Virus record (IMG/VR): IMGVR_UViG_3300046001_007283
Span: 1 to 37,302 of that record
DNA: 37,302 bases
Source: a virus
Reading direction: 5' to 3' (one strand)
The notes below the pieces were generated by a model. That model had not been told where the DNA came from. It ran no database searches and saw only the letters and a program-made list of their open reading frames with translations. Below are positions 2,019-36,508 of this stretch, piece by piece (position 1 is the first letter of the stretch; every line of letters starts with the position of its first letter). The translations under genes were made by a program, and so were the position numbers.

Positions 2019-5000
2019 TTAGTTAGCAACAAAACGTACACTATTACTATACCCTATCGACACACCATTTATTGCATATGCTCTAGCGTAATATACCACA
2101 TTTCTAGTTAAACCAGTAAAGGTTTTATCAAATGAAACAGTTCCACCACCATCGTCTTCTTTAAATTGATAATTATTAATTGTTGGATTACTTGTGGCAT
2201 TTGATATTAACACCCCTCTTATAAAAATTTCACTTCCATTTTCTTTAATATTACTTACAAACGCTTGATTACTAGTTGCATTTATCAGTAAATCCAAAGT
2301 TGGTACCCATATTGTTGTAAAAGTTGTTATGACACCATATCCTGTTCCAGCACTATTTGTTGCATATGCTCTAACATAATATAGAACTGCAGGAATAAGA
2401 CCATTAATACTTGATGTGAAAGAACCAGTTCCTGATCCGTTAGTTGTATAAGAATTTGATATGGTTGGATTCGGATTTGTTGATGAATAAACAACTCCTC
2501 GTACAGTGACAGTTGCACCACCATCACTACTAACATTTCCCCCTGATTGTGCTGAATTAATATCAATATTAGAAACACCTAATGTTGTTACAGTTGGTAT
2601 GGTTGCAAGTAGTGGCGGTATGAATTCATGTACAGAAGAATAGTGTCGTGTTTCTGATTTATTGTTATTATACCAATTATCTTGACAATAATCAGTATAC
2701 ACCATAAATCTAACATAATTTTTTTGACCTCTTTTGAAAAGAGAATCGTTTATTGTCATATTAGTTCCTCTTATTAAGTATTCGTAACTATTTATATTTA
2801 GATCAGGGTTAATCGAACTAAATATTGTTGCAACAATAAGATTTGAACCAAAAGATTGGGGAATTAAATCCCCACTAACACTACCAGAAACCTGATATGT
2901 GTTGGCGTTTATAAATGAACCTTGTGGTCCACTAAAAATAACATTTCTATCCCTTGTTTTCAAAATGTCACCATTAATATCTTGTGGGGTAGGAACTTGG
3001 TCACTATAATGTGACGCCTTGATAGCATAAAACGTACAAACATTTAAATTATTAAACGTATAACTAACACCCGCTCTCGAAGCCGATAAAGTAACAGTTT
3101 CAAACACTAAACTTTGATCGTAACTAGCAACAATATCAATTTTAACTTTATGATTTGTAGTACAATTATTATATTCGTCATAAATATTAACATTATTATC
3201 ATCATAAAAGTTAACAGTTGCCGTTATTGATTTATAGTCACTAGCAACCGCAGTAAGTTTTGTTGGAGGTAAAACACAAGGTTTTTTATATGTTAAAAAA
3301 TTACCGTAACCAGTACCTATTCTATTTTTTGCATACGCTCTAAAATCTCTTGACTCCCCAAACTTAAAATCTATAACCTGGTCTGGAATAATTGTAAATG
3401 TACCTGTACCTCCTTGAATTACATTATTTACCCTATAAGGATATTCCGTACCTCCAATTTCTAAACCTTTAATAGTAATATCTGCAAGATTATCTTGAAT
3501 ATTATTTCCACCATACGTTGTTGTTGTTAATGTTGGTTTACCAGCAGGTGTCGGTGTTGGTGTTGGTGTTGGTGTTGGTGTACGTGTTTCTGTCGGTGTA
3601 GGTGTCGGTGTACTAGTTCTTGTTGGCGAAGGTGTTGGCGTTGGTGTACTAGTTAATGTCGGTGAAGGTGTCGGTGTTGGTGTTGGCGTACTAGTTCTTG
3701 TTGGCGAAGGTGTTGGCGTTGGTGTACTAGTTAATGTCGGTGAAGGTGTCGGTGTTGGTGTTGGCGTACTAGTTCTTGTTGGTGAAGGTGTGCTAGTTAA
3801 TGTCGGTGAAGGTGTTGGCGTTGGTGTACTAGTTCTTGTTGGTGAAGGTGTTGGTGTTGGTGTACTAGTTCGTGTCGGTGAAGGTGTTGGCGTTGGTGTA
3901 CTAGTTCTTGTTGGTGAAGGTGTTGGTGTTGGTGTACTAGTTCGTGTCGGTGAAGGTGTTGGCGTTGGTGTACTAGTTCTTGTTGGTGAAGGTGTTGGTG
4001 TTGGTGTACTAGTTAATGTCGGTGAAGGTGTTGTTGTTGGCGTTGGCGTACTAGTTCGTGTCGGTGAAGGCGTACTAGTTAATGTCGGTGAAGGTGTTGG
4101 CGTTGGCGTACTAGTTCGTGTTGGTGAAGGTGTCGGTGTAGATGTTTGTGTTGGTGTAGGTGTTGGTGTTCTAGTCTTCGCGTTTGGACAACTTAATAAA
4201 ATCACATGAGGGTTAAATGTTTTAAAACTAACAATAAAAAAATTTGGTACATTTGTTAATATTGTGAAATCAAAAATAACATTAGAACTTAAAATTTTAT
4301 GTTCTAAAATATTTTGATTATTATGTATAATTTTAAATTCATAAAAATTTCCCTGACTACTGTTTTGAAAATTAAATTTACCATATTGTTGTTCACCAAA
4401 TGTAAATGTATAATTATAAATACCGGATCTATTATCGTATAGTTCGTAATTGTTGCAATTAGCGTTTTTATTAATTACCGATAATGTTGTTTCTGTTGGT
4501 GTAGGTGTAGGTGTAGATGTGGGTGTACTAGTTAGTGTTGGTGAAGGTGTTGTTGTTGGTGTAGGTGTACTAGTTAGTGTTGGTGAAGGTGTTGGTGTCG
4601 GTGTACTAGTTAGTGTTGTTGTTGGTGTAGGTGTACTAGTTAGTGTTGTTGTTGGTGTAGGTGTACTAGTTAGTGTTGTTGTTGGTGTGGGTGTTGGTGT
4701 ACTAGTTAGTGTTGGTGTCGGTGTTGGTGTACTAGTTAGTGTTGGTGAAGGTGTATTAGTTAAAATAAATGTTCCAGTTAATGTTGGTGTGGATGTGGGT
4801 GTACCAGTTTGAGTGGATGTCGGTGTCGGTGTACCAGTTTGAGTGGATGTCGGTGTCGGTGTCGGTGTACTAGTTAGTGTTGGTGTCGGTGTTGGTGTAC
4901 TAGTTAGTGTTGGTGAAGGTGTTGGTGTCGATGTACTAGTTATAGTTGGAGTAGGAGTTGGTGTACTAGTTAATGTAGGTGTTTGTGTTTGTGTTGGTGT

Positions 5001-5282
5001 TTGTGTTGGTGTTAATTCAACATAATCACAACAGTCATCTAAGTTAACTTTAAAAATTTGTTCACAACAACCAGTACATGTTACTTTAACAAATACCTCT
5101 AATAAAGTTGGATCTATTGAATCTATTTTTATAGAACTCCCAACAAAAGATAAAAACACCACATCATTTGAAATTGTATTTTCAGTGATTCCAGTATAAA
5201 CAGAACAATTTTTATAATTAAATTTTGAATTTAATTTAATTAATATGCCTTTTGGTGTTGTAGTATTATTTATACAACTCAT
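2019..5282 (-). CDS. Modular Thr/Pro-linker tail-fibre or adhesin protein (1087 aa)
   Basis: This protein alternates globular modules with Thr-Pro linkers. Residues 1-90 form a small Cys-containing N-terminal domain ([16 protein letters not shown]) that resembles the N-terminus of the 2193-aa protein at 8371-14952. Residues 91-263 are a TP/TS linker. Residues about 265-368 form a domain opening [12 protein letters not shown] and closing LLSCP, homologous to one in the 639-aa protein. Residues about 369-578 are a second linker with a 12-residue period. The C-terminal ~500 residues hold several fibronectin-type-III-like beta-sandwiches; the clearest contains [20 protein letters not shown] and ends [16 protein letters not shown], a form common in Bacteroidota surface proteins. 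No signal peptide or membrane segment is visible, which fits an intracellularly assembled virion protein. A receptor-binding or fibre role is inferred from architecture. Confidence 0.85.
3548..4176 (-). repeat. 36-bp tandem repeat coding a 12-aa Thr/Pro/Ser linker unit
   Basis: On the coding strand the unit encodes [12 protein letters not shown] or close variants (TLTS in place of TRTS), giving a 36-base period that is clearest over 3600-4140. Third codon positions vary between copies, while nearly every Thr-Ser pair is written ACTAGT. Length varies by whole codons, so the frame is kept. It forms the second linker of the 1087-aa protein. Confidence 0.9.
4493..5012 (-). repeat. Degenerate Thr/Pro/Ser-coding repeat tract (first linker of 1087-aa protein)
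   Basis: Tandem hexamer-based repeats encode [12 protein letters not shown]-type sequence. Several 18- to 24-base sub-repeats are visible, for instance the [10 protein letters not shown] units at 4609-4690 and a doubled TSTQTGTP unit near 4800-4860. The tract joins the N-terminal domain to the NCNNYEL domain. Confidence 0.88.
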
Positions 5283-5534: not shown

Positions 5535-6098
5535 TTATTCCTTTATTAATCTAATGGGAAAACCATCTTTTTTCCACATGCCACCTTTTCCAAATTCATA
5601 TCCAGAAAACAAAAATACATATTTGCATAAATTTTCATCAATGGATTCTTGCGTGAAATATGGCGATAATAAATCTGTTGCAAAGTTTCCATCCATATGT
5701 CTAAACCCTGTTGACTTTGCATTAAAACCAAATTCATCCGTTCCACCAACATTAATGGTCGTTTCAATCCCTTCCATATTCTGCGTCATTGCTGTCCATC
5801 CATTAATTGATTTTAATTTATGTCCGGCAACATCTTGATTTCCAACAAAATTAATTAATACATTCCAATCATTATCAGTTGGAACCCTCCATCCAGTAGG
5901 GGCAATGTTTCTATTATCTGTAATAACCCAATAATTATATAGATAATCATTGTTTTCATTGATGCTGTATGCTGGGGATGTTAATTCGCTCCATTCATTA
6001 ATGTTTGGTACAAATGGAATGTCATCACCATTTCTAAATTTTGTTATTGTTGCATTTTCTGCGGACCATATTTGAGATCCAATTTGAATTTCATTCAT
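5535..6098 (-). CDS. FISUMP-domain protein without N-terminal adaptor (187 aa)
   Basis: The whole protein is one FISUMP domain (Fibrobacter succinogenes major paralogous domain). It opens with IGSQIWSAENATITKFRNGD, matching the family signature IGxQxWMxENL..TxFxxG. It continues with GWRVPTDNDWNVLINFVG (signature GWxxPTxxEW..L), then GFNAKSTGFRHMDGNF, and ends DGFPIRLIKE, the counterpart of the family's GFSVRC tail, here lacking the usual Cys. Unlike its two upstream neighbours it begins directly with the FISUMP core and lacks the ~75-residue N-terminal domain. The ATG at 6098 follows the stop of the previous gene by 11 bases. FISUMP domains occur in Bacteroidota surface proteins and phage receptor-binding proteins; a role as a fibre-tip or particle adhesin is inferred. 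Confidence 0.88.
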   Translation of the reverse strand: MNEIQIGSQIWSAENATITKFRNGDDIPFVPNINEWSELTSPAYSINENNDYLYNYWVITDNRNIAPTGWRVPTDNDWNVLINFVGNQDVAGHKLKSINGWTAMTQNMEGIETTINVGGTDEFGFNAKSTGFRHMDGNFATDLLSPYFTQESIDENLCKYVFLFSGYEFGKGGMWKKDGFPIRLIKE

Positions 6099-6109
6099 AA
6101 TTTTTTATT

Positions 6110-6922
6110 TTAATTTTTTAGACACCTAACTGAAAAACCCCACCGAATATCTTGACTACCACCTTGTATACTAGAATTACTGATTAAAACATAATAAAAC
6201 GTAGAAACTGTTGTTGACCAAAAATAACCGTAAGAATTAAAAAGACTAAAAGCACCATCATCAGTTTTACGACCAGATAACAAAGCATTATACCCTGATG
6301 AATTTGTTCCATTACCACCTAAAGTTGTTGATTTTAATTTTGTAGCATTTTCACTTCCAAGAAAAGTAGTCAATGTTGAAAATTCTGTTGATGTTGGTGC
6401 ATGCCAACCACTTGGACACAAATTAACATTTGCCGTTGCCCCAGTTGTGCTCCCAGTAACTGCAAATTGATTATAAACCAATCCATAGGTTTGCGTATTT
6501 CCTGTTGTTCCATTCACCAATGCCCAATATTTGGTTGATCCAGTTGCACTTGCGGCAGCCCAAACAGCATTTGTTGTTTGACCTGTGTTATCCAATGGCG
6601 TTCCATCTTGAAATTTGGTTGTTTTCAAGTTTTCTGACATCCATATTTGATTTCCAATCTTTATTGTTTTATATCTATTCCCATCACCATCTGGTGGTGT
6701 TTGTTGATTTATAGTACAAGTTTTTGAATATCCTGTAAAATTACAATAAAACACACCATATTCATTGCTTATTGTTGATGATGAATAGGTAAATGGGATT
6801 GTTTGAACGCCAAGTGATATTGCGTTTGCATCTGTATATGGTATAGTATTACCTGTTGATGAAAATAAGGTCACATTTGCTGATTGACCATTATAATTTG
6901 TTGATGTTATTTGAACTGACAT
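6110..6922 (-). CDS. FISUMP-domain protein, paralogue B (270 aa), variable C-terminus
   Basis: Residues 1 to about 76 form an N-terminal domain (ITSTNYNGQSANVTLFSSTG) shared with the genes at 6934-7755 and 7759-8328. A DGDG joint at about residues 77-81 leads into a FISUMP core: IGNQIWMSENLKTTKFQDG, CPSGWHAPTSTEFSTL, and the tail GFSVRCLKN. The middle of the gene is almost identical in DNA to the 6934-7755 gene (compare 6409-6660 with 7228-7480). The last ~55 residues before GFSVRC align without gaps but differ at most positions. The gene is preceded by the same 11-base spacer (6923-6933) that follows it at 6099-6109, which points to tandem duplication of a whole cassette. Likely a receptor-binding or fibre-tip protein, by inference. 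Confidence 0.9.
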   Translation of the reverse strand: MSVQITSTNYNGQSANVTLFSSTGNTIPYTDANAISLGVQTIPFTYSSSTISNEYGVFYCNFTGYSKTCTINQQTPPDGDGNRYKTIKIGNQIWMSENLKTTKFQDGTPLDNTGQTTNAVWAAASATGSTKYWALVNGTTGNTQTYGLVYNQFAVTGSTTGATANVNLCPSGWHAPTSTEFSTLTTFLGSENATKLKSTTLGGNGTNSSGYNALLSGRKTDDGAFSLFNSYGYFWSTTVSTFYYVLISNSSIQGGSQDIRWGFSVRCLKN

Positions 6923-6933
6923 AATTTTTTATT

Positions 6934-7755
6934 TTAATTTTTTAAACACCTAACCGAAAAACCGTACAGAGAACTATACGTACTCTGATCGAAAACAGTA
7001 TTATTGAAAAGCAAGTACCGGGCGATATCAGAGGACGTAGCCCAAAAGAACCCGTAGAAACTGAAACCGACCCAACCACCATTAGTACCGCGGTAGCCAG
7101 GGGGTAGTCCATTGAATCCTGATGAATTTGTTCCATTACCTGGACTAGCCCATAATGTTGTTGATTTTGCTTGTGTTCCAGGATTTGTTCCAAGCGTTGT
7201 AACCAATGTTGCAAATTCTGCTGATGTTGGCACATGCCAACCACTTGGACACAAATTAACATTTGCCGTTGCCCCAGTTGTGCTCCCAGTAACTGCAAAT
7301 TGATTATAAACCAATCCATAGGTTTGCGTATTTCCTGTTGTTAAATACACCAATGCCCAATATTTGGTTGATCCAGTTGCGCTTGCAGCAGCCCAAACAG
7401 CATTTGTTGTTTGACCTGTGTTATCCAAAGGTGTTCCATCTTGAAATTTGGTTGTTTTCAAGTTTTCTGACATCCATATTTGATTTCCAATCTTAATTGT
7501 ATCATATGTATTTCCATCACCATCTGGTGGTGTTTGCTTATTAACAATGCAAGTTTTTGAATAGTCTGTAAAATTACAAGAAAAATGACCATATTCATTA
7601 CTTATTGTTGATGATGAATAGGTAAATGGAAATGTTTGAACTCCAAGTGATGTTGCGTTTGCACTTGTATATGGTATGGTATTACCAGTTGACGAATATA
7701 AGGTTATGTCTGCTGACCGACCATTATAATTTGAAGAAGTTAGTTGAATTGGCAT
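6934..7755 (-). CDS. FISUMP-domain protein, paralogue A (273 aa), candidate hypervariable C-terminus
   Basis: It has the same layout as its downstream paralogue: an adaptor domain (residues 1 to ~76, starting MPIQLTSSNYNGRSADITLY), a DGDG joint, and a FISUMP core with IGNQIWMSENLKTTKFQDG, CPSGWHVPTSAEFATL and a GFSVRCLKN end. The segment coding about residues 215-267 (6950-7110) is striking. It is A-poor on the coding strand, rich in NNC/NNT and NNG codons, and noticeably richer in G and C than the rest of the window, giving GGWVGFSFYGFFWATSSDIA. Aromatic, Ser, Gly and Asp residues there resemble FISUMP variable faces. The ATG at 7755 lies 3 bases after the stop of the 189-aa gene, so the two are probably co-translated. 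Adhesin role inferred. Confidence 0.9.
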   Translation of the reverse strand: MPIQLTSSNYNGRSADITLYSSTGNTIPYTSANATSLGVQTFPFTYSSSTISNEYGHFSCNFTDYSKTCIVNKQTPPDGDGNTYDTIKIGNQIWMSENLKTTKFQDGTPLDNTGQTTNAVWAAASATGSTKYWALVYLTTGNTQTYGLVYNQFAVTGSTTGATANVNLCPSGWHVPTSAEFATLVTTLGTNPGTQAKSTTLWASPGNGTNSSGFNGLPPGYRGTNGGWVGFSFYGFFWATSSDIARYLLFNNTVFDQSTYSSLYGFSVRCLKN

Positions 7756-7758
7756 ATT

Positions 7759-8328
7759 TTAAATATCTATAATTATTACATCACAAGGTAAGTTTATTGA
7801 TAAATCACAAGTAGGTGGTGTTGTTGGTGTTAATGTCGGTGTTGGCGTTAATGTAGGTGTTCTAGTTAATGTAGGTGTTGGTGTTGGTGTTGATGTTAAT
7901 GTCGGTGTTAATGTAGGTGTATTAGTTAATGTTGGTGTATTAGTTAATGTTGGTGTTAATGTAGGTGTATTAGTTAATGTTGGTGTTAATGTCGGTGTTA
8001 ATGTTGGCGTACTAGTTAATGTTGGAGTACTAGTTAATGTCGGTGTATTGGTTAATGTTGAAGTTAATGTAGGAGTACTAGTTAATGTCGGTGTTAATGT
8101 TAATGTCGGTGTTGGTGTTGGCGTTGGTGTTGGTGGAAGAACATTACAAACACAAAAAAACGAATTTCCAGTAATAATATAATCACCATATATATAATCA
8201 TTATTAAAAATATATGGGATTGTTTGTGATCCAATTATAACTTCAGTACCACCAGTAAATGGTTGAAATGTTATATGGGCGGTTTGTCCACTATAATTAG
8301 AACTTAATATTTTTATATTACTAGACAT
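7759..8328 (-). CDS. Adaptor-domain plus Thr/Pro-linker protein (189 aa)
   Basis: Residues 1 to ~64 ([20 protein letters not shown], then [11 protein letters not shown]) are homologous to the N-terminal domain of the two FISUMP proteins encoded just downstream. Where those carry a FISUMP domain, this protein has about 105 residues of [16 protein letters not shown] linker, followed by only ~16 residues ending [16 protein letters not shown]. It therefore looks like a linker with no globular head, or one whose head was lost by deletion. It may be functional as a short spacer, or it may be a remnant of a domain swap. The start at 8328 has a run of eight A residues directly upstream on the coding strand and no Shine-Dalgarno sequence. 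Confidence 0.8.
7812..8140 (-). repeat. Thr/Pro-coding repeat tract in the 189-aa gene
   Basis: Tandem units encode [12 protein letters not shown]-type sequence, with ACATTAAC (Thr-Leu-Thr) recurring on the coding strand. It belongs to the same repeat family as the larger tracts in the neighbouring genes. Confidence 0.88.
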
Positions 8329-8370
8329 TTTTTTTTTATTTATAAATATTTTAATTTTCTTTATTAATCA

Positions 8371-11300
8371 CTATGACCCACCACCTCCGATACAGTCACT
8401 ATCATTATTACAAGGATTAGATGTCGGAGATATGTCAACGGTTCCACTATTTTGACTTGGTGTAGTTCCGTAAGTTACACATTTATATATTGTTTCACCA
8501 ATGTCAATATTAGTTTGAGTTGATCCTAACCCACAAGCGTCATATGATACATTAGCAGTAGTTCCCCCTAAATTTTGGAAAGACCAACAAACACATTCAG
8601 GAGTTGACGGACTACTTAGTGTTGGTGTTGATGTTAATGTAGGTGTACTAGTAGATGTTAATGTAGGTGTACTGGTTAATGTTGGTGTACTAGTAGATGT
8701 TAATGTAGGTGTACTAGTCCTCGTTGGTGTTTGTGTACTGGTTAATGTTGGTGTTTGTGTTGGTGTTAATGTAGGTGTACTAGTCCTTGTTGGTGTTTGT
8801 GTACTAGTTAATGTCGGTGTTTGTGTACTAGTTAATGTTGGTGTACTAGTAGATGTTAATGTAGGTGTACTAGTCCTTGTTGGTGTACTAGTAGATGTTA
8901 ATGTAGGTGTACTAGTAGATGTTAATGTAGGTGTACTGGTTAATGTTGGTGTACTAGTAGATGTTAATGTAGGTGTACTGGTTAATGTTGGTGTACTAGT
9001 AGATGTTAATGTAGGTGTACTAGTAGATGTTAATGTAGGTGTACTAGTCCTTGTTGGTGTACTAGTAGATGTTAATGTAGGTGTACTGGTTAATGTTGGT
9101 GTACTAGTAGATGTTAATGTCGGTGTACTAGTAGATGTTAATGTAGGTGTTTGTGTTGGTGTTAATGTCGGTGTACTAGTCCTTGTTGGTGTACTAGTAG
9201 ATGTTAATGTAGGTGTTTGAGTACTAGTTAATGTTGGTGTTAATGTATGTGTTAATGTAGGTGTACTAGTCCTTGTTGGTGTACTAGTAGATGTTAATGT
9301 AGGTGTTTGTGTTGGTGTTTGTGTTGGTGTTAATGTAGGTGTACTAGTAAATGTTAATGTCGGTGTACTGGTTAATGTCGGTGTTTGTGTACTAGTTAAT
9401 GTTGGTGTTTGTGTCGGTGTTAATGTAGGTGTACTGGTTAATGTCGGAGCACTAGATGATGTTAATGTCGGTGTACTGGTTAATGTCGGTGTTAATGTTG
9501 GAGTTAATGTAGGTGTATTAGTAGATGTTAATGTAGGTGTTAATGTAGGCGTACTGGTTAATGTCGGTGTACTAGTAGATGTTAATGTCGGAGTACTAGT
9601 AGATGTTAATGTAGGTGTTTGTGTCGGTGTTAATGTCGGTGTACTAGTCCTTGTTGGTGTTTGTGTACTGGTTAATGTCGGAGTACTAGTCCTTGTTGGT
9701 GTTTGTGTACTGGTTAATGTCGGAGTACTAGTTAATGTTGGTGTTTGTGTTGGTGTTAATGTCGGTGTTTGTGTTGGTGTTAATGTCGGCGTACTAGTCC
9801 TTGTTGGTGTTTGTGTACTGGTTAATGTCGGAGTACTAGTTAATGTTGGTGTTTGTGTTGGTGTTAATGTCGGTGTTTGTGTTGGTGTTAATGTCGGCGT
9901 ACTAGTCCTTGTTGGTGTTTGTGTACTAGTTAATGTTTGTGTACTAGTTAATGTCGGTGTTTGTGTACTGGTTAATGTCGGAGTTTGTGTACTGGTTAAT
10001 GTAGGTGTTTGTGTACTGGTTAATGTAGGTGTTTGTGTACTGGTTAATGTCGGTGTTGGTGTACTAGTTAATGTCGGTGTTGGTGTTTGAGTTAATCCTG
10101 GTGTAACAGTTAATGTAGGTGTACTAGTTAATGTTGGTGTTGGTGTTGGTGTACTAGTTAGTGTTGGTGAAGATGTTGGCGTACTAGTTAATGTTGGTGA
10201 AGGTGTTGGTGTACTAGTTTTAGTTTGGGTCGCAGTTAATGTTGGTGTAGGTGTTAATATTTCAGGACAAGTTAACACAATATCCCATAAAGTACCTTCT
10301 AATGGTGTCGTTACAATAATTGTTATTATAGATGGTGTCATCGCAGATTTGGTAAATGATACCGTAATTAATCCGGTTCCAGAAATATTAGGATACCCTA
10401 ATGAATTTAATTGTGAATTATATATTTCATTACCTATAAAACCAGTGTCTATTACTTTATTTCCACCCCAATAAACTTCAAACTTATCAGGTGTGTTATA
10501 TGAATTTAAATCTAATGAAACAACCCCTATTGATAAACCAGTATCCACCATAATTGTTGTTAACGCCCTACCACCTAGTCCACCTAATAAACTAGAACTA
10601 ATTTGTTCCCCACAATATCCTGTATAATAAATTTGTTCAAATGATGTGGCGGTAGGTGTTAATGTCGGTGTTAATGTCGGTGTTGGTGTTAATGTTTGTG
10701 TTATTGTAGGTGTTGATGTAGGTGTTAATGTAGGTGTTTGTGTACTGGTTAATGTTTGTGTTATTGTAGGTGTTGGTGTTAATGTCGGTGTAAGTGTTTC
10801 AGTAGATGTTGGGGTTGATGTCTGAGTAGTTGTTGGAGTTGGTGTTGGTGACACTAATTCTAAAGTAAAATCACAATCAGATGTTTGTGTAGGATGACTA
10901 AGCGTGAAATTCCATAAAGAACCAACTAATGGTACTGTAACAACAATTAAAACTTGTGAAGGAAATGATTTTGTTTTACCAAAATATTCAACACCATTAC
11001 CTGGTCCTGAAATATTTGGTAATCCTATTTGATTTAATTGTTCATTATAAAATTCATCTCCTCTAAAACCAGTATCAATAACTTTTTTACCATCCCAATA
11101 AACTCTAAATTTATCTGGTGTAACTAACGAATTAAAATCAAATGTTACAATACCAATTTCATAACCCATATCCATATAAATAAGATATGTAACCATACCG
11201 TTATTTATACTTGAATATACAGTTTCTCCAGGTGAACCAAATAATACTATTTGTTCAAATTTTGTTGCGGTTGGTGTAAGTGTTGGAGTTGTAGTTAATG

Positions 11301-22900: not shown

Positions 22901-25659
22901 AATGGTCCATAATTTTCATATCCAGACGTATTTCTAGATATTGTCATAGAATTAATTAAATTAATTAACGCCCTCACCCATAAACTTTTTATTTTATTTA
23001 AATCAGTATTTAAATAATTTTTATATTCAGAAATTAACGCAATGTTTATCGGATCGTTACTAATCAAATCAGTACTACCTGTCATCGGGAATGGGTTGAA
23101 TAGTTTAGCACTATTCGTTGTATTTGTTATTCCACTAACAACAACAACCATATCGTCAGTCAACATATCATAATTCGGACCACCAAATATTTTACTATCA
23201 ATTTCTATTACAGGATAAAACGTAACTCCTGTTAAATTAATTAAACCTCTAAAATTTTCTTCTTCACCAATTAATGTTTCAATATCTTCAATAATTGCAG
23301 ATTCAAAATCTGGATATACTTCTTCATAAAAATATTTAGGTTGACACCCAAATTTATACTGATATTTAGAACGACCAAATACATTATTTTCAATTAAATT
23401 ACCACCACTCCATAATGTTGTTGATGGTAATAATTGTTCAATTAATTTAACCCAATATGGACTAATTTTATTCACAAACTCTTGAGAATCAATAAAGGTA
23501 AAAGACGTAAATCCAGCCTTTGAAACATAATCTCTGTATATATCTTCAAGAACTATATAATTTTTCTTATACCTTATTATGTGTGAATTTTTCACTTGTT
23601 TGTGTATAAAATTATTCACAAATTCAGCAAAAGTAACACCTGTTTGTGGAGGTAAAGTAGCACTACCAAAAGAAATTCCTAAATCTCTCGATTTCCTATA
23701 TATGTCATAATTTATAGAATTAGACGCAGAAATATGTATTGAAATATTTTTTCTATTAAGAATTAATTTAGAATCACTATCAATATTATGTGCTTTTATA
23801 TTATCAATTTCAGATTTTAAACCGAAACCCGTATCTAATCCAGGTAATGTTCTGTATATATCAAAATAATCTTCACCATAAGTGTAATCCTTATTTTTTG
23901 TTTTAATAATTTTAGTTCTACCTGTTAAATCTGAATTTTCATTATCAATAACTGTTGGTGAACGATGGTCAAGAGTTACATCATACCACCCAGCACCTTT
24001 TTCAAAGAAAATATCATCAGATTCACTAAAAGCCCTTCTAGGTAAACCAGTATTTTCATCAACAGGATAACCATATCTACTGAAATTTGTTATACCATTA
24101 GTTTCAGATTTTGTATATGAATATGTGGTTGGGTTAAATTCAGCAACATAATATTTTTTTTCACCTGAAATAACATCATAAATGTCTTGTTCTAAATCAA
24201 AACTATTAGGAAATGATGTTACTTGGTAAACATATTCATCAATCTTTATTAATGGTTCAGGTGCACCTAAAAATTTTAAAAAAAATTCAATTGAAGATCT
24301 GGTTCCTTTAGATTTAAAAATAAAAGATAAATTTACTAACAACCTTTTATAAAATTCATATTCAGATTCTACTAAATTTAATCCTATTGGTGAACCTTCA
24401 TAAGATGAGATTGATCTAGTATATAAAACATCGTTTAATGTTTTTTCATCAAATAAATTAGTCGTCGAAAAACCTAAATTTTCTGATAAATTTTTTAATA
24501 AAATATCAGGTAAATTATTAATCCCATCATAACTTACATTTCTCATATAAGCTATATTATCAATATATTTTTTTACATTATCAAAACTTTGCCCATATAA
24601 TTGAAAAACATTTTGTGCTCTTTTATCTTCCGTATCAAATTCAAACAATTGAGGGGAGGATAAAAATCTAACCATAATGTTTGATTTATAGTTATCCACT
24701 TCATCTGATATTGTTTTTAAATTTTCAACATATGTTTCAAATTCTAAACCTGTAATAGCAATATTCCACCCATCACTAGATAATGGCCAATTATATTCAA
24801 CATTTTGTAATGTTATACTTGAACCATCATCACTATTTGAAGGTATTTCAAATCTAGAAGAATAAATTGGTACAGTTTCTCTATTCAAAAGAGATTCTTC
24901 AATATCATCTAAATCAGAAAAAAAATCTTCAACTATACCATCATTAGGCCGGATTATAAAATTTTTATTATATGATGTTTCTGAATTAAATGGATTTCCA
25001 TTGACAACTAAGATTATTTCATTAGATGAATTTGATTCAGTATAATTAATTATTGGATAATTTTCATTATTAACTAATATAACATATTTCGTATATGATG
25101 AATAAAAATTTCTTATCTCATTTTCTGTAGGTGACTTTATTAAACTATTAGGTGTGATTAATGAAATATCAAATGGATTAAAAATTTTACTTTCTTGAAT
25201 ATAAAAAGTTGTTCTATTTAAACCATAATCATATGTTATATTATATGCAGAATATGAATTATTCGAAATTGGACCAGATGCATTTATTTCAAATCCACTA
25301 GGAAATTTATTTATTATTTTAGTTATCGATACTAATAATCTTTCTTTTAATGAACCAAATAAAGATTTATCTGCATTTCTTTTATTTGTTTTAAAACGAA
25401 TTGAATTTTTTTTATTTTTTTGTCCTGTTGGTTCAATTACATCAATATTTTCTTTTTTATTGATGTCCTCTAAAGTTATAAATTCTGAAAATGGTTCAGA
25501 CCTAAAAGATTTTTCATCTTTTTCTGGTATAACTTTATCTATTTCAAATACAGTATTAGCAAGCGAAGGACTACCTGTAGTAATTTGTCTTCCAACTAAA
25601 TTATCATTAAATGTTTCTGACCCATTGGCCGCTTGATTTGGTACTTTTCTATTCGCCAT
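16975..25659 (-). CDS. Giant baseplate-fibre fusion: gpI/gp7-like N-terminal half plus fibre modules (2894 aa)
   Basis: Residues 1 to ~1408 are globular, linker-free sequence. Around 440-470 lies FYKRLLVNLSFIFKSKGTRS followed by SIEFFLKFLG, resembling the aliphatic-KGT..I...L..LG motif of P2 gpI-type tail proteins; this fits the W-J-I order of P2, since gp25- and gp6-like genes lie upstream. From ~1409 onward linkers alternate with modules: five copies of a ~120-residue domain around [20 protein letters not shown] (about 1480-1602, 1792-1915, 2140-2266, 2288-2408, 2414-2535), a unique Cys-rich domain at about 1972-2080, and six delta-60 repeats plus a degenerate seventh at 2537-2893, a predicted seven-bladed propeller. 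The ATG overlaps the previous stop as TAATG. Seen: the motif, repeats and fusion. Inferred: the N-terminal half anchors in the baseplate and the C-terminal half projects as a fibre. Confidence 0.88.
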   Translation of the reverse strand: MANRKVPNQAANGSETFNDNLVGRQITTGSPSLANTVFEIDKVIPEKDEKSFRSEPFSEFITLEDINKKENIDVIEPTGQKNKKNSIRFKTNKRNADKSLFGSLKERLLVSITKIINKFPSGFEINASGPISNNSYSAYNITYDYGLNRTTFYIQESKIFNPFDISLITPNSLIKSPTENEIRNFYSSYTKYVILVNNENYPIINYTESNSSNEIILVVNGNPFNSETSYNKNFIIRPNDGIVEDFFSDLDDIEESLLNRETVPIYSSRFEIPSNSDDGSSITLQNVEYNWPLSSDGWNIAITGLEFETYVENLKTISDEVDNYKSNIMVRFLSSPQLFEFDTEDKRAQNVFQLYGQSFDNVKKYIDNIAYMRNVSYDGINNLPDILLKNLSENLGFSTTNLFDEKTLNDVLYTRSISSYEGSPIGLNLVESEYEFYKRLLVNLSFIFKSKGTRSSIEFFLKFLGAPEPLIKIDEYVYQVTSFPNSFDLEQDIYDVISGEKKYYVAEFNPTTYSYTKSETNGITNFSRYGYPVDENTGLPRRAFSESDDIFFEKGAGWYDVTLDHRSPTVIDNENSDLTGRTKIIKTKNKDYTYGEDYFDIYRTLPGLDTGFGLKSEIDNIKAHNIDSDSKLILNRKNISIHISASNSINYDIYRKSRDLGISFGSATLPPQTGVTFAEFVNNFIHKQVKNSHIIRYKKNYIVLEDIYRDYVSKAGFTSFTFIDSQEFVNKISPYWVKLIEQLLPSTTLWSGGNLIENNVFGRSKYQYKFGCQPKYFYEEVYPDFESAIIEDIETLIGEEENFRGLINLTGVTFYPVIEIDSKIFGGPNYDMLTDDMVVVVSGITNTTNSAKLFNPFPMTGSTDLISNDPINIALISEYKNYLNTDLNKIKSLWVRALINLINSMTISRNTSGYENYGPFTGTTGQTYSVETLPMLTYSITIGENGIELIKFSSCKYGIEDCSVKDYFSYRFETDYQIIKLTDRLSVQLSGDGEQYCEEPENCLLSSDIFIDIVGTKFSIQNGNNWPFYIYTNSINGHSENSSIFIEKVEGYDNRFKLTGITENDVIDFNIIDAANNEVKFKLVGLKPKMEYDPLTTSNEKSHIEIFELIAYQGTTGNTISKISGVTLCDDYVCYTIQPNVEYTSNYNYGLKENSFVLVVPQNIVINDSTTKEEIESYIYGGTIDKKTVYDLQIGDYILSVNYLPVSGLTNQQFINGNYGDLSFIYKYSKLLVTDKICLGSVKKNIITGQTKNGNIEIFEVLPNTELRVYTNKYIENFGLIKNGIYHFDDRFPEELQIKSLTIDEPYDNGDFLIDQYGNLIEVISVDLNYSDISLYYNINVSKNGNIFSDQFLTIFGGNLNHQLLMRHLYDKHPNVSFKSGQYYIDSLNCNVIPSNQELEKSIFDCIPSITPTPTLTQTLTSTPTQTPTQTPTQTLTSTQTQTQTLTSTPTSTPTQTLTTTPTQTQTPTQTPTLTETQTLFEEVYKTGSCDEIIDSTGNLTNKVIYYVTVNVGEDIGNIMLNYNTGGIPDKIEVYFDGILISDLGFRGDETFNSLLNNLGYPSVNGGGLGSFSFSKNSSSTDVLIKVTSVLNFTPNWSIVCSCVLSPTQTPTPTLTQTLTSTPTLTPTQTVTQTRTSTPTLTPTQTVTQTRTSTPTPTLTQTLTSTPTPTQTVTQTRTSTLTPTPTQTLTSTPTPTQTLSGTPTPTITQTLTSTPTPTPTQTLTNTPTPTQTLTSTPTQTLTNTPTSTSTLTPTPTLTPTSTSTLTPTPTPTNTGTSTPTPTLTSTPTPTQTGFELINKTASCGEQVDASGGTGGKSIQTITIDTGTLTGFFTLDFDSYYVPDKFEVFWDGNKVIDTGFRGSDTFNGVLNSLGYPNISGTGYDSISFNKTNVSPSIVTVVVTAPLDGTVWNFILNCPPVPTSTPTPTSTLTSTPTITLTSTPTQTPTLTSTRTVTPTQTLTQTLTSTPTPTNICHEFNIIVGYVTYDLNNEPIYNLFNSCFNTCQYYNAVEPITVKIYSKSPTLLQNVEIFNNIDSCLNGSSGTSTPTYFYYSGTSYCYETTRFTDLKTYIRNISSCGNVTPVPTRTSTSTPTPTRTSTSTPTPTPTRTLTPTITSTSTPTLTQTLTSTPTPTPTPTPTGFELISTNGLCNQEITSASVGSSGGRGIYTITIDVGSQIGDVVLNYNAYSIPDKFEVYWDGNKVIDTGFRGDSSLNPILNNNGYPSVSGPGNGSVSFNKTKSSPTTITVIITAPLNGTIWSFFVNCPTPFTQTPTPTPTQTPTPTPTTSAPESIILNKNCGETVSSVTGGKSTHTIYLEVGTEVGDIMLDYKAYNIPDKFEIFWDGNKVIDTGFRGDSGYNSQLISEGYTSVSGPGIGSVSFNKSKSLPSTVTVVVTAPFNGTAWDFILNCPTTPFNIINQNITCDNTFTQGISERRKYYLTVPLGSSTGYVTTTYSSGQIPEKYDFYLGDNFLVTTGFRGDNLNYNEELANEGYEPISGPGSGSFTFYKSSATPNYAVIVITAPFSSYFSVNMGCPISCFISGTYVDNFSSRINDIEIQSDGKTLVGGRFIVYNGNNVNNITRLNSDGSVDNTLNIGTGFNNEVNDIEIQSDGKILVAGLFTSYNGNSRNYFTRLNLNGSIDNTLNIGTGFNNEVNDIEILSDGKILVGGRFTSYNGNGMNYFTRLNSNGSIDNTLNIGTGFNNDVSTIRTQSDGKILVDGFFTSYNGNSVNGIVRLNPNGLIDNTFSTGTGFYNNNFSVYIYDIKLDNSNGIIIVGQFTRYNGIDVNGIIKLSSNGSIDNTFNTGTGFDIPPSKINIQSDGKILIGGRFTRYNGIDVNGIVRLNSDGSIDTTFDLYNNNGVDNIKTLSNNQILVSSGNSFYRINKDGTNNNCP
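19243..19416 (-). repeat. Thr/Pro-coding linker repeat
   Basis: The tract encodes [17 protein letters not shown]-type sequence between the Cys-rich module and the third [10 protein letters not shown] domain of the 2894-aa protein. Confidence 0.82.
19748..19902 (-). repeat. Thr/Pro-coding linker repeat
   Basis: A degenerate tract encoding TPTSTLTSTPTITLTST-type sequence between the second PDKFEVFWDG domain and the Cys-rich module of the 2894-aa protein. Confidence 0.8.
20289..20842 (-). repeat. 555-base Thr/Pro/Gln-coding linker repeat
   Basis: The tract encodes [16 protein letters not shown] units and TPTPTQTLTS units. A 48-base block occurs twice back to back near 20700-20800. It separates the first two [10 protein letters not shown]-type domains of the 2894-aa protein. 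Confidence 0.88.
21223..21434 (-). repeat. Thr/Pro/Gln-coding linker repeat marking the end of the baseplate-like half
   Basis: The tract encodes [18 protein letters not shown]-type sequence. It is the first linker in the 2894-aa protein and marks the switch from linker-free globular sequence to fibre modules. Confidence 0.85.
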
Positions 25660-26576
25660 TATTCAGTAATAGTATCAAAATTTAAAGTTTCATCAATATC
25701 AGTTCTTTCTTCACGAATTTCATATAAAGTTTCATTTAATTCGTCCTTAACTTCATAAAGATTATACTGTTTATATATATTGTTATTATTATCATAAATC
25801 GTATAGATACCTTGAGACACCGCCTTACTTTGATTACCATATAACGCATGAGCTAATGTTGTGGTATCATGTTCAACCATTTCAACTTCAATTGTTGTTG
25901 GATTTAAAAAAGTGTTTGTTAATATAATTTTTTGTGAAGGTAATCCAATAAAAGGTACTGTATTAGGTTTATTCGAAGGTGCCGATGATGGTGTTACTGT
26001 TAAAAATAAAAAAGATGTGACTTGTTCACTATATTGATATCTTATAGATTTATCACTAGTACTATTTAAATTTGAAACTATAGGTGTACAATAAAACGAA
26101 GATGTAACTATTCTATAAAAATTAGGTATTTTTTTATTATCTGAACTGTTTATATATTCAATTCGATAACCTACTAATCCTTGTGATGTAAATTTATTTC
26201 TATCTGTTACTGAAACATTACTTAAATCAATAATTAATCCTCTAACAGAAGGTAATGATGCTAAAATACCACAATCAGTTATAGTTGTTCTTATTTGTTT
26301 AGGTCTAATATGTATTGTATATACACCTAATTCTGAAAAATCTACTGATGATAATTTTAAATTATATAATCCACCTAATATTTCAACATCCGGCGCGGAA
26401 GAATCATCTGTTGTATTCACGTTATGAAAAACAGGTGTTAAAACATCGGATGAATTTAATCTTTTTAATTCTGCGGTTACGTCACTAGTTCTTTCCGGAA
26501 CATAATGATAATATATTTCAACATCTTCCGGTGAAACATCTGATGGTCTAATTATTCCATATGATCCTTGTGCCAT
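25659..26576 (-). CDS. Predicted virion structural protein (305 aa)
   Basis: I do not recognise a family. The protein begins MAQGSYGIIRPSDVSPEDVE, has regular beta-prone segments, and carries an Asn/Glu-rich acidic C-terminus (DELNETLYEIREERTDIDET). There is no signal peptide, membrane helix or catalytic motif. It lies in the baseplate operon between the PKD-containing protein and the 2894-aa baseplate-fibre protein. Its TAA overlaps the ATG of the latter (TAATG at 25661-25657), which suggests coupled translation and perhaps a fixed ratio or direct partnership. The start at 26576 is preceded by an A-rich run and no Shine-Dalgarno sequence. A baseplate or tail-collar role is inferred from position alone. 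Confidence 0.8.
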   Translation of the reverse strand: MAQGSYGIIRPSDVSPEDVEIYYHYVPERTSDVTAELKRLNSSDVLTPVFHNVNTTDDSSAPDVEILGGLYNLKLSSVDFSELGVYTIHIRPKQIRTTITDCGILASLPSVRGLIIDLSNVSVTDRNKFTSQGLVGYRIEYINSSDNKKIPNFYRIVTSSFYCTPIVSNLNSTSDKSIRYQYSEQVTSFLFLTVTPSSAPSNKPNTVPFIGLPSQKIILTNTFLNPTTIEVEMVEHDTTTLAHALYGNQSKAVSQGIYTIYDNNNNIYKQYNLYEVKDELNETLYEIREERTDIDETLNFDTITE

Positions 26577-34221: not shown

Positions 34222-36054
34222 TTAAAATGTTGTTGATCCCAATACCTTTGTTCTAATTCTTATATTTTGATTTGGAAATCTAATCTGATAAATTTGATTG
34301 GATTTCATGAAAATTGTCATATCAGATTGTCTAATTTCTTTTGTTGAATTATCAATATAAGATTGTGAAACTTCAGCACTTGAATATTCACCACCAATTA
34401 AATTATATACTCTTGTATTAACAACATTAATTACACCGTTAATTTGTCCTATCGTTCTATTTAAATCACCAATAAATAATGGATCACCCATTTTACGTTT
34501 TTCTATACTAAAATAATCAATTATTTCTTGTATTGTGTCTGTGATTATTTCTGTTGCACTATTATTTTTATCTATTGCCAAGTCAACTTCAATTTTAAAA
34601 TCAATAACTTGTCCACTTTCAATATCAATAAAATCATTTATCATTCGATATTCAGATAAATAATTTAATATGTTATCTTTTAATGTATTAGAAACAACAT
34701 CGGATAAATTACCATTTTCATCATATGATAATAATTTAATTTTTATTTTATTATCTTCTTCCATTACATTAACTTTTGCCGGTGCTCCATAAGTTGAGGG
34801 CATAGTTTCTATTAATGACTTATAATCGTTTAATGTTACCGCTCTATTTTGTGCTGAAAAATTGAAACCAATCATATTTCTAATCTCTTCTATTGCAGGG
34901 ATATCAGCCCCACCAACTGCGGGTGTAATATTTGTAACAATTAATGATTGTGAAACTTGGGTATTAGTAGATATATTAGGACCATTAATTACAAAATCAA
35001 CATTATCTATACTTGTAATAACATTAACACCAAGATTAGTGTCTTTACCTCCACCAATTCTATATTTTATAAATAAAGTTGTTCCGACTTTAGGTATCAT
35101 ACCTAATGACATATTATTTAAATAGGTACTTAGATTAACTTTCATCGAACCTGTCATATAATCGTCTAAGTTACTTACTGGGTCAACATTACCACTACCA
35201 AAAGTTAAATAAAAATAATTTTCTGGTGTGTATTCTGTGATAAATTTATTTGTTACACTAATGTATTTACCTGCCCTAAAATTATCTCTATCTGAAACAC
35301 TAGTTGGGTCAGTTATGAATACTTTATCTTGTACTAAAGATTTTACTTCATACCATTTATTTGTAACATCTAAAAATTCTGAATTTGTTGGATTACCCCC
35401 AAAAGATGTTCCATCTTTATGAATTACCGATGTAACACCTAAAATATTTTGTTCGGGTAAATAAATTTTTAAAAATGGTTTTTGGTCAACTTCAGTAATT
35501 ACTTTTCTGAAAATTCTTGTCACTCCATTTATAACTGGTTCTCTTTTTATTATAGTATAAGATATTAGTGTATTATTACCATCAAAATTTGGTATCTTTA
35601 ATCTATTGGGTTCTCCTTTACTATTGAATGGATTTGAAAAGTCTATGTCTTCTAATGTTTCAAAAGATTGCCCACCACCTGAAACTTGTGCACCTGACTT
35701 TATTACTCCCAAATAACTTTCATTCTCTTTATCACCTTTGACAGGTACATTTATTGAAAAATCACATAACGCTACCGATGGTCTATTTCCAGGGATTTTT
35801 AATCCATATGTTTTTGCAATATGGAACAATGATTGTCTTTGTTGAGCAAAATCCAATATAGTTTCTTGCCAAACTCTATCAATATGAAAATGTAAATTAT
35901 CCGCAACCGCAGCATTTAAATCTAATAAAACAGAATAAATAGACGCATCATTAGTATTTTTAACTAAATCTGGATAATATTGTTTGGTTAAATTAACTAA
36001 TTCTTGTCTTAACCCAGCGAAATCTCTAGTCGCATATGAAATTTTCTTTCCCAT
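34222..36054 (-). CDS. Baseplate wedge protein, gp6 / baseplate J-like (610 aa)
   Basis: The protein opens MGKKISYATRDFAGLRQELV and continues with YPDLVKNTNDASIYSVLLDL and NAAVADNLHFHIDRVWQETI, the N-terminal pattern of T4 gp6 and Mu/P2 baseplate J-like proteins. A later segment, PAVGGADIPAIEEIRNMIGF then AQNRAVTLNDYKSLIETMPS, matches the conserved baseplate-J core (GG.D..S.EE.R......NRAVT..DY). The C-terminal third has alternating strands (VINVVNTRVYNLIG). T4 gp6 is about 660 aa, so 610 is the expected size. In the baseplate, gp6 dimers join wedges into the ring next to gp25. The ATG is one base after the stop of the gp25-like gene, in the W-J gene order known from P2. Confidence 0.93.
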   Translation of the reverse strand: MGKKISYATRDFAGLRQELVNLTKQYYPDLVKNTNDASIYSVLLDLNAAVADNLHFHIDRVWQETILDFAQQRQSLFHIAKTYGLKIPGNRPSVALCDFSINVPVKGDKENESYLGVIKSGAQVSGGGQSFETLEDIDFSNPFNSKGEPNRLKIPNFDGNNTLISYTIIKREPVINGVTRIFRKVITEVDQKPFLKIYLPEQNILGVTSVIHKDGTSFGGNPTNSEFLDVTNKWYEVKSLVQDKVFITDPTSVSDRDNFRAGKYISVTNKFITEYTPENYFYLTFGSGNVDPVSNLDDYMTGSMKVNLSTYLNNMSLGMIPKVGTTLFIKYRIGGGKDTNLGVNVITSIDNVDFVINGPNISTNTQVSQSLIVTNITPAVGGADIPAIEEIRNMIGFNFSAQNRAVTLNDYKSLIETMPSTYGAPAKVNVMEEDNKIKIKLLSYDENGNLSDVVSNTLKDNILNYLSEYRMINDFIDIESGQVIDFKIEVDLAIDKNNSATEIITDTIQEIIDYFSIEKRKMGDPLFIGDLNRTIGQINGVINVVNTRVYNLIGGEYSSAEVSQSYIDNSTKEIRQSDMTIFMKSNQIYQIRFPNQNIRIRTKVLGSTTF

Positions 36055-36055
36055 A

Positions 36056-36508
36056 TTATATATTGATAATTATAAAATCTGATGAACTAAATGGTTCGTT
36101 ATTAATGTCATAATCAATTCTAACCTTAGCAGTGTAAGGTTTTGTAGAATTACTTGATACTCTGAATAATCTACTATCACTTTCTTCGCTAACGCTTGAA
36201 AGTTCCTCAGTATCTTGATCAGCTTGTACTATTCTTATTTCTGTTATATCTAAATTTGGAATAAATTTTTTAACTGTTGTTCTAATTTCATCCTCAATCA
36301 TTTGAAATGTAACAGAATCGTTTGGTTCAAAAATATATTCATAGAGTCTTGTACCAAAATCAGGTAAATAATACCTTGTCCCTCTTCTAGTTAATATTAA
36401 ATGTAACAAATTCGCTCTTATTTCTCTGTCAGGCGTTTCAGTCATATTAAAAAATGTACCTCTTCTACTTTCATTAAAAGGAAAATCTATACCATACGTT
36501 TTTGCCAT
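36056..36508 (-). CDS. Baseplate wedge protein, gp25/GPW family (150 aa)
   Basis: The sequence MAKTYGIDFPFNESRRGTFF, followed by EIRANLLHLILTRRGTRYYL and PDFGTRLYEYIFEP, carries the GPW/gp25 signature: an N-terminal strand, then the R.NL..L..T..GER....FGT.L....FEP motif. Next comes IEDEIRTTVKKFIPNLDITE, the usual helix-strand close of the domain. T4 gp25 is 132 aa and P2 gpW 115 aa; the extra ~20 residues form an acidic Ser-rich loop (EELSSVSEESDSRLF). gp25 links the wedge to the sheath-initiating ring. This is the first gene after the nrdA terminator and probably opens the baseplate operon. Its leader has no Shine-Dalgarno sequence. Confidence 0.95.
   Translation of the reverse strand: MAKTYGIDFPFNESRRGTFFNMTETPDREIRANLLHLILTRRGTRYYLPDFGTRLYEYIFEPNDSVTFQMIEDEIRTTVKKFIPNLDITEIRIVQADQDTEELSSVSEESDSRLFRVSSNSTKPYTAKVRIDYDINNEPFSSSDFIIINI

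Follow-up and report, generated by a model that had tools for sequence, protein, structure and literature searches.

The DNA analysed here, hereafter the window, is the complete 37,302-base IMG/VR record IMGVR_UViG_3300046001_007283, a fragment from a large tailed phage, and its minus strand carries three consecutive genes for FISUMP proteins, which we term g2, g1 and g3. The pair of adjacent FISUMP genes recognised in the initial annotation corresponds to g2 (6934..7755(-), 273 residues) and g1 (6110..6922(-), 270 residues), and is followed by a third such gene, g3 (5535..6098(-), 187 residues); all three proteins match PF09603 and TIGR02145 above the curated cut-offs. As had been noticed, the spacers between g2 and g1 (6923..6933(-)) and between g1 and g3 (6099..6109(-)) are the same 11 bases, AATAAAAAATT. 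The bodies of g1 and g2, described at first as sharing long identical DNA stretches, proved to be nearly but not fully identical, with nucleotide identities of 0.92–0.97 in five 20-codon windows (alignment columns 80–180), longest exact runs of 110 and 62 bases, and 5′ parts that diverge as well (0.78–0.88). Just downstream of a three-codon length difference, the tails align without gaps and share 17 of the 55 residues before GFSVRC (31%, in line with the one third first estimated); in the variable part, comprising the last 47 residues of the tail, identity is 11/47. Differences between the tails fall on all three codon positions, an observation that also held up and that had been raised as an objection to variation by a diversity-generating retroelement (DGR).

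Complete DGRs, each with a FISUMP target, an Avd gene, a template repeat (TR) and a reverse transcriptase (RT) gene, were found directly before the orthologue of g3 at loci L001, L003 and L024 and on the contig of L020, L025 and L034. The four IMG/VR records concerned are 3300013126_002067, 3300013132_002829, 3300023179_004710 and 3300028569_001475, the last of which contains only the variable repeat (VR) end of the target while the other three contain it whole. A scan of viral sequences with g2 returned five loci, with an RT in 2/5 records, and scans with the RT and with g3 returned 5 and 28 loci, respectively; since these IMG/VR scans may omit the nearest kin of the window, their failure to return a close relative carries no weight. 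RT sequence lies directly before g3 at 7 of the 28 g3 loci (L026, L033–L037 and L044), with the contig beginning inside the RT gene in L026, L033 and L037, and with Avd and TR also present in L034, L035, L036 and L044. At the other 21, several of which are short and some near-copies of each other, no RT match was obtained at E 1e-8 in the stretch covered. Gene order in the DGR-bearing relatives is target FISUMP, Avd, TR, RT, g3 and tail sheath gene, and the sheath gene (a PF17482 match in L003) follows g3 in all seven RT-bearing loci. Avd was assigned by PF22296, above cut-off for the L003 and L025 proteins (the NF033474 match of the L003 Avd lies below its cut-off), and RT by PF00078; one RT search was positive in 3/26 records and missed short RT ends in the L033 and L037 records that tblastn caught. 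The L003 RT contains IGNLTSQ and YVDD, which we take to fit DGR-type RTs. With 66–68% amino-acid identity, g2 is orthologous to the DGR targets of L001, L003 and L024.

Alignments were made of each TR (L001, L003, L024 and L025) with its own VR and with both window tails, and differences were evaluated by Fisher tests, whose p-values treat sites as independent. Against its own TR, each VR is changed at many adenines (L003 21/46, L001 16/46, L024 22/47, L025 20/46) and at very few other bases (4/113, 0/113, 2/112 and 0/110, in the same order). The tail of g2 shows a similar pattern against every one of these templates: it differs from the best-fitting TR, that of L025, at 26/46 adenines and 9/113 other positions (p 1.9e-10), from the L003 and L001 TRs at 27/46 and 12/113 (p 1e-9), and from the L024 TR at 28/47 and 11/112 (p 1.8e-10), while control comparisons between TRs gave no adenine bias (p 0.72–1). 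At 28 columns g2 is unlike all four TRs, and 24 of these have adenine in at least one TR, compared with 51/159 columns overall (hypergeometric 1.1e-10). Moreover, 13/15 AAY codons are recoded in g2 against 8/38 other codons, with the AAY third base retained at 14/15. Because the differences from the relatives' TRs are concentrated on adenines and the TRs show no such bias among themselves, the core at 6946..7104(-) is almost certainly a DGR-written VR. The initial suggestion of DGR variation is therefore upheld for the g2 tail, by the TRs of four related records, and is not borne out for g1, which differs at about half of the sites whatever the template base. This also resolves the third-position objection: the g1 tail does not fit the template of g2, and third-position differences between the genes appear because a DGR-written tail is being compared with one of other origin, g2 itself being changed at just 3/51 non-adenine third positions relative to the L025 TR.

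The g1 tail alignable to the VR (6140..6280(-)) differs nearly everywhere from the L025 TR, at 30/46 adenines and 54/113 other bases (p 0.034). As about half of its sites depart from the TRs regardless of the template base, g1 was ruled out as a template or sister VR of g2, and its alignment indicates that the tail very probably does not come from the template of g2. Matches of the g1 tail elsewhere in 19 records were limited to its conserved ends and to 26 bases at one place in the window, and no relative of it was found in IMG/VR at the sensitivity used, in scans that may omit near kin. Import of a different tail cassette, proposed early on as an alternative to a DGR, is consistent with g1, and a template-free segment upstream of the VR that differs between L001 and L003 offers a parallel. 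The onset of divergence is also similar in the two pairs, at coding-sequence position 523 for g1 and g2 and 525 (own numbering) for L001 and L003, at most ~8 bases apart when a two-codon gap is allowed for.

DGR activity in this family is apparent from the comparison of L001 with L003, which have ~11.4 kb in common. Leaving aside the 3′ half of the target, ~11.1 kb contain 6 substitutions and a single 1-base indel, the substitutions lying at 1/1144 positions upstream and at 0/481 and 5/9490 downstream; this indel is a length difference in the C-run with which the TR begins (L003:7717-8871). Within the VR, 27 columns differ, 20 of them at TR adenines, and the remaining 7 include three bases inserted in L003. 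A further 38/150 columns differ immediately upstream of the VR (L003:6686-6765 versus L001), among them a 9-base indel; this segment lies outside the TR and is not the product of this template, the simplest reading being a tract acquired from another allele by recombination. A blastn comparison of the complete pair gave 51 mismatches and 17 gap positions, a small discrepancy that reflects alignment. The excess of substitutions that had been named as a check on the DGR idea is thus present among relatives, with the differences between L001 and L003 almost confined to this part of the target.

Around the three FISUMP genes, minus-strand gene order in the window runs from the end of a ribonucleotide reductase gene through gp25-like and J-like baseplate genes (34222..36508(-)) and a run of long genes, several with PT-rich repeats, to g2, g1, g3 and two more genes, the last being truncated by the contig end. 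The baseplate genes, at 50–51% amino-acid identity to those of the large relative G009 (103 kb) and in the same order, assign the window to a baseplate/fibre locus. Window proteins match G009 in order at 27–55% (gp25-like 51, J-like 50 and 25659-26576 55), and the window gene at 3-1958 matches a second large relative, G010 (270 kb), at 30%. The g3 protein is 93% identical to those of L031–L034 and L026; in G009 and G010 the g3 gene, whose product is likewise 93% identical to that of the window, adjoins the sheath gene elsewhere than the fibre locus, and the fibre regions hold other, more distant FISUMP genes. No sheath homologue was found in the window. A fibre locus at 27–55% identity that contains a g3 at 93% to a sheath-locus gene suggests recent movement of the g2-g1-g3 block, which on these identities probably came from a sheath-type locus. 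Within the block, g1 occupies the position of Avd-TR-RT in the relatives. The bases AATAAAAAATT also precede g3 in 7/7 RT-bearing loci, where the RT gene ends in them, and this sharing is suggestive of a trace of an RT gene; as the scar of a lost RT gene the spacer was kept as a hint only, with similar AT-rich bases occurring at L043, where no RT was seen, and in the leader of the L024 target.

Several side observations concern the surroundings of the block. Hundreds of short, imperfect PT-coding repeats occur at 2019-5282, at 7759-9500 and in further fibre genes of the window, and PT-rich proteins of varying length adjoin the same locus in related phages. Between the PT-rich protein and g3, differing small genes are found in L031, L038–L043, L045–L048 and L052, so that this slot looks like a site of modular exchange. 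At L002:10001-10840 a FISUMP gene is followed by a g3-like gene (60%) in 61.5 kb that contain no RT; its W-rich tail occurs only once in that record, and neither this tail nor that of L005 fits the TR. Locus L062, which came from a pattern scan, was discarded as a chance match, being visibly G+C-rich and lacking matches to the FISUMP, Avd, RT and TR queries. Related RTs (56–59%) together with Avd were found at L063–L067 on metagenome-assembled genome (MAG) contigs of Flavobacteriales, Crocinitomicaceae and other Bacteroidetes. At these five Bacteroidota loci Avd lies upstream of the RT and is flanked by a repeat pair of 141–146 bases, and the window FISUMP proteins have no match there. Judging from these RT relatives, the host of this phage group is probably a member of the Flavobacteriales or of other Bacteroidota.

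RT, blastn and DNA searches bore out the initial statement that the window holds neither an RT nor a template repeat. There was no RT match in this 37.3-kb fragment (one such run contained no positive record; a search of the same kind was the one positive in 3/26 records) and no Avd match at 1e-8; nor was there a TR, the search with g2-tail DNA matching only itself. Blastn of the Avd-TR-RT cassettes of two relatives against the window gave a single strong match, between the TR and the tail of g2; the other matches were weak (best E 4e-4 and 4.5e-5). CTCAGAAATTGA terminates each of the four DGR targets, which also have a segment in common ahead of Avd; the terminus of g2 is TTAAAAAATTAA, g1 begins 11 bases on, and bases conserved in all four targets are missing. 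The target of BPP-1 requires an initiation of mutagenic homing (IMH) element and a downstream inverted repeat, according to the relevant passages of PMC3240598. No hairpin better than shuffled sequences was found in the L003, L024 and L025 targets or in the window, and the loss of a hairpin was dropped as proof of a dead g2, because the three folded relatives' targets lack one too; only the loss of the conserved 3′ end therefore counts, and it is suggestive of a frozen state. On balance, we lean towards g2 being no longer diversified, a frozen orphan VR on this contig.

There is an appreciable, though lesser, chance that g2 is instead a live remote target, with RT, Avd and TR elsewhere in the same phage and acting in trans, most likely from a sheath locus off the contig. 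In G009 and G010 the sheath-type and fibre loci are indeed separate, an RT adjoins g3 and the sheath gene in 7/28 g3 loci, and phages are known to have remote DGR targets (PMC8143477, PMC8008677). Against a live g2 stand its 3′ end, which lacks the conserved bases and is followed by g1 after 11 bases, and the two large g3-bearing relatives, G009 and G010, in which no RT match was found (either may be a fragment, their completeness being unverified).

It appears unlikely that the g1 tail is likewise a VR that originated from a second template rich in AAT. T-ending fourfold codons are in excess in this tail (17/26 versus 28/106 in the body, p 3.7e-4, in a test made after looking), and the alignment with the VR is free of gaps. 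The codon excess is equalled, however, in 51/1916 equal windows of ten window genes, residues encoded solely by NNY codons abound in FISUMP tails, and neither a second copy in the 19 records nor an IMG/VR relative was detected, near kin possibly being omitted. More improbable still is an assembly artefact, in which a mixed phage population contributed two alleles of a single gene that were joined as a false tandem: the record is metagenomic and the middles of the bodies are 92–97% identical, but g1 and g2 differ in their 5′ parts too, both frames are intact and the spacers are identical. Finally, the absence of any DGR, with homologous recombination exchanging FISUMP tails that had diverged in the ordinary way, would suit g1 and the template-free L001–L003 difference with its 9-base indel, but is strongly disfavoured for g2 by the adenine-specific pattern against four TRs that is lacking between TRs, and by the selective recoding of AAY codons with their third base kept.

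We consider it quite probable overall that g2 carries a DGR-written tail and g1 a tail of other origin, in a block copied from a sheath-locus DGR module that left an orphan VR. In this model the large tailed phage would have in g2 a FISUMP protein of receptor-binding type, in whose C-terminal face an error-prone RT, copying the template repeat, replaced the adenine positions. Its tandem paralogue g1, with the same body, would most likely have received its tail by homologous recombination; the g2-g1-g3 block was then probably copied from the sheath-locus module with loss of the machinery, so that g1 now stands in the Avd-TR-RT position and the block in the baseplate/fibre locus, leaving in g2 a VR that is probably frozen. 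An AlphaFold2 model of the target from 8 sequences, with a mean predicted local distance difference test score of 37, was unusable for judging a C-type-lectin fold, and a profile search of the PDB returned no match at 0.01. Several points weigh against this account: the contig is a fragment, so that the absence of RT and TR informs little on the phage; the 9 non-adenine differences of g2 from the best-fitting TR require a slightly diverged template, the template used being that of relatives and not the phage's own; the T excess of the g1 tail could also arise from another, AAT-rich template; the near-identical bodies of g1 and g2 may have confused the metagenome assembly; leaders similar to the shared, AT-rich spacer are found without an RT; and the frozen state has the altered 3′ end as its sole basis.

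More speculatively, a scheme of two layers and two loci could be envisaged, in which a sheath-locus DGR writes VRs and recombination moves modules of target, paralogue and g3 to the fibre locus; from the sequences at hand we regard this as doubtful. If it were true, C-terminal halves would be swapped between alleles, a single phage would present two neighbouring proteins of the same body, one with a DGR-written tip and the other with a different one, and the template-free hypervariability seen between L001 and L003 just upstream of the VR would belong to the same scheme.

FISUMP proteins as DGR targets (PMC4159848, PMC8143477) and distant targets (PMC8143477, PMC8008677) are already published, as the pertinent parts of these reports make clear, and a large RT-anchored DGR survey states, in its section on the matter, that remote targets escape it (PMC8144416). 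The present analysis adds that templates of relatives let a DGR-written VR be recognised on a contig without an RT and without a template; it also contributes a group of large tailed phages whose FISUMP DGR adjoins the sheath gene, and a near-identical record pair (L001/L003) showing a DGR change and a second, template-free change in one gene. Among the closest systems are the four IMG/VR DGR loci, which share with the window the template family, the downstream g3 and, in the three whole-target records, the target body; they have kept Avd-TR-RT and adjoin a tail sheath gene, whereas the window has g1 in a baseplate/fibre locus. In the human-microbiome DGRs of PMC4159848, Fib_succ_major likewise occurs in putative variable proteins (9 in Table 2), but those proteins were found with their DGRs, and the sections of that report devoted to them describe no orphan VR or tandem paralogue. 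Tentaclins (PMC10743442) are also DGR-hypermutated phage receptor-binding proteins, with two targets; they are other proteins, and Fib_succ does not occur in the searched text of that paper. Quimbyvirus, as presented in the DGR passages of PMC8008677, has one target near its tail-fibre genes and one distal, a precedent for distant targets, although its RT lies within the genome. The Bacteroides uniformis 'Bacuni' phages, in the account given by the corresponding part of PMC8143477, similarly have a second target far from the RT; they are complete ~40 kb siphovirus genomes with an RT, whereas the window contains the target only, beside a paralogue with another tail.
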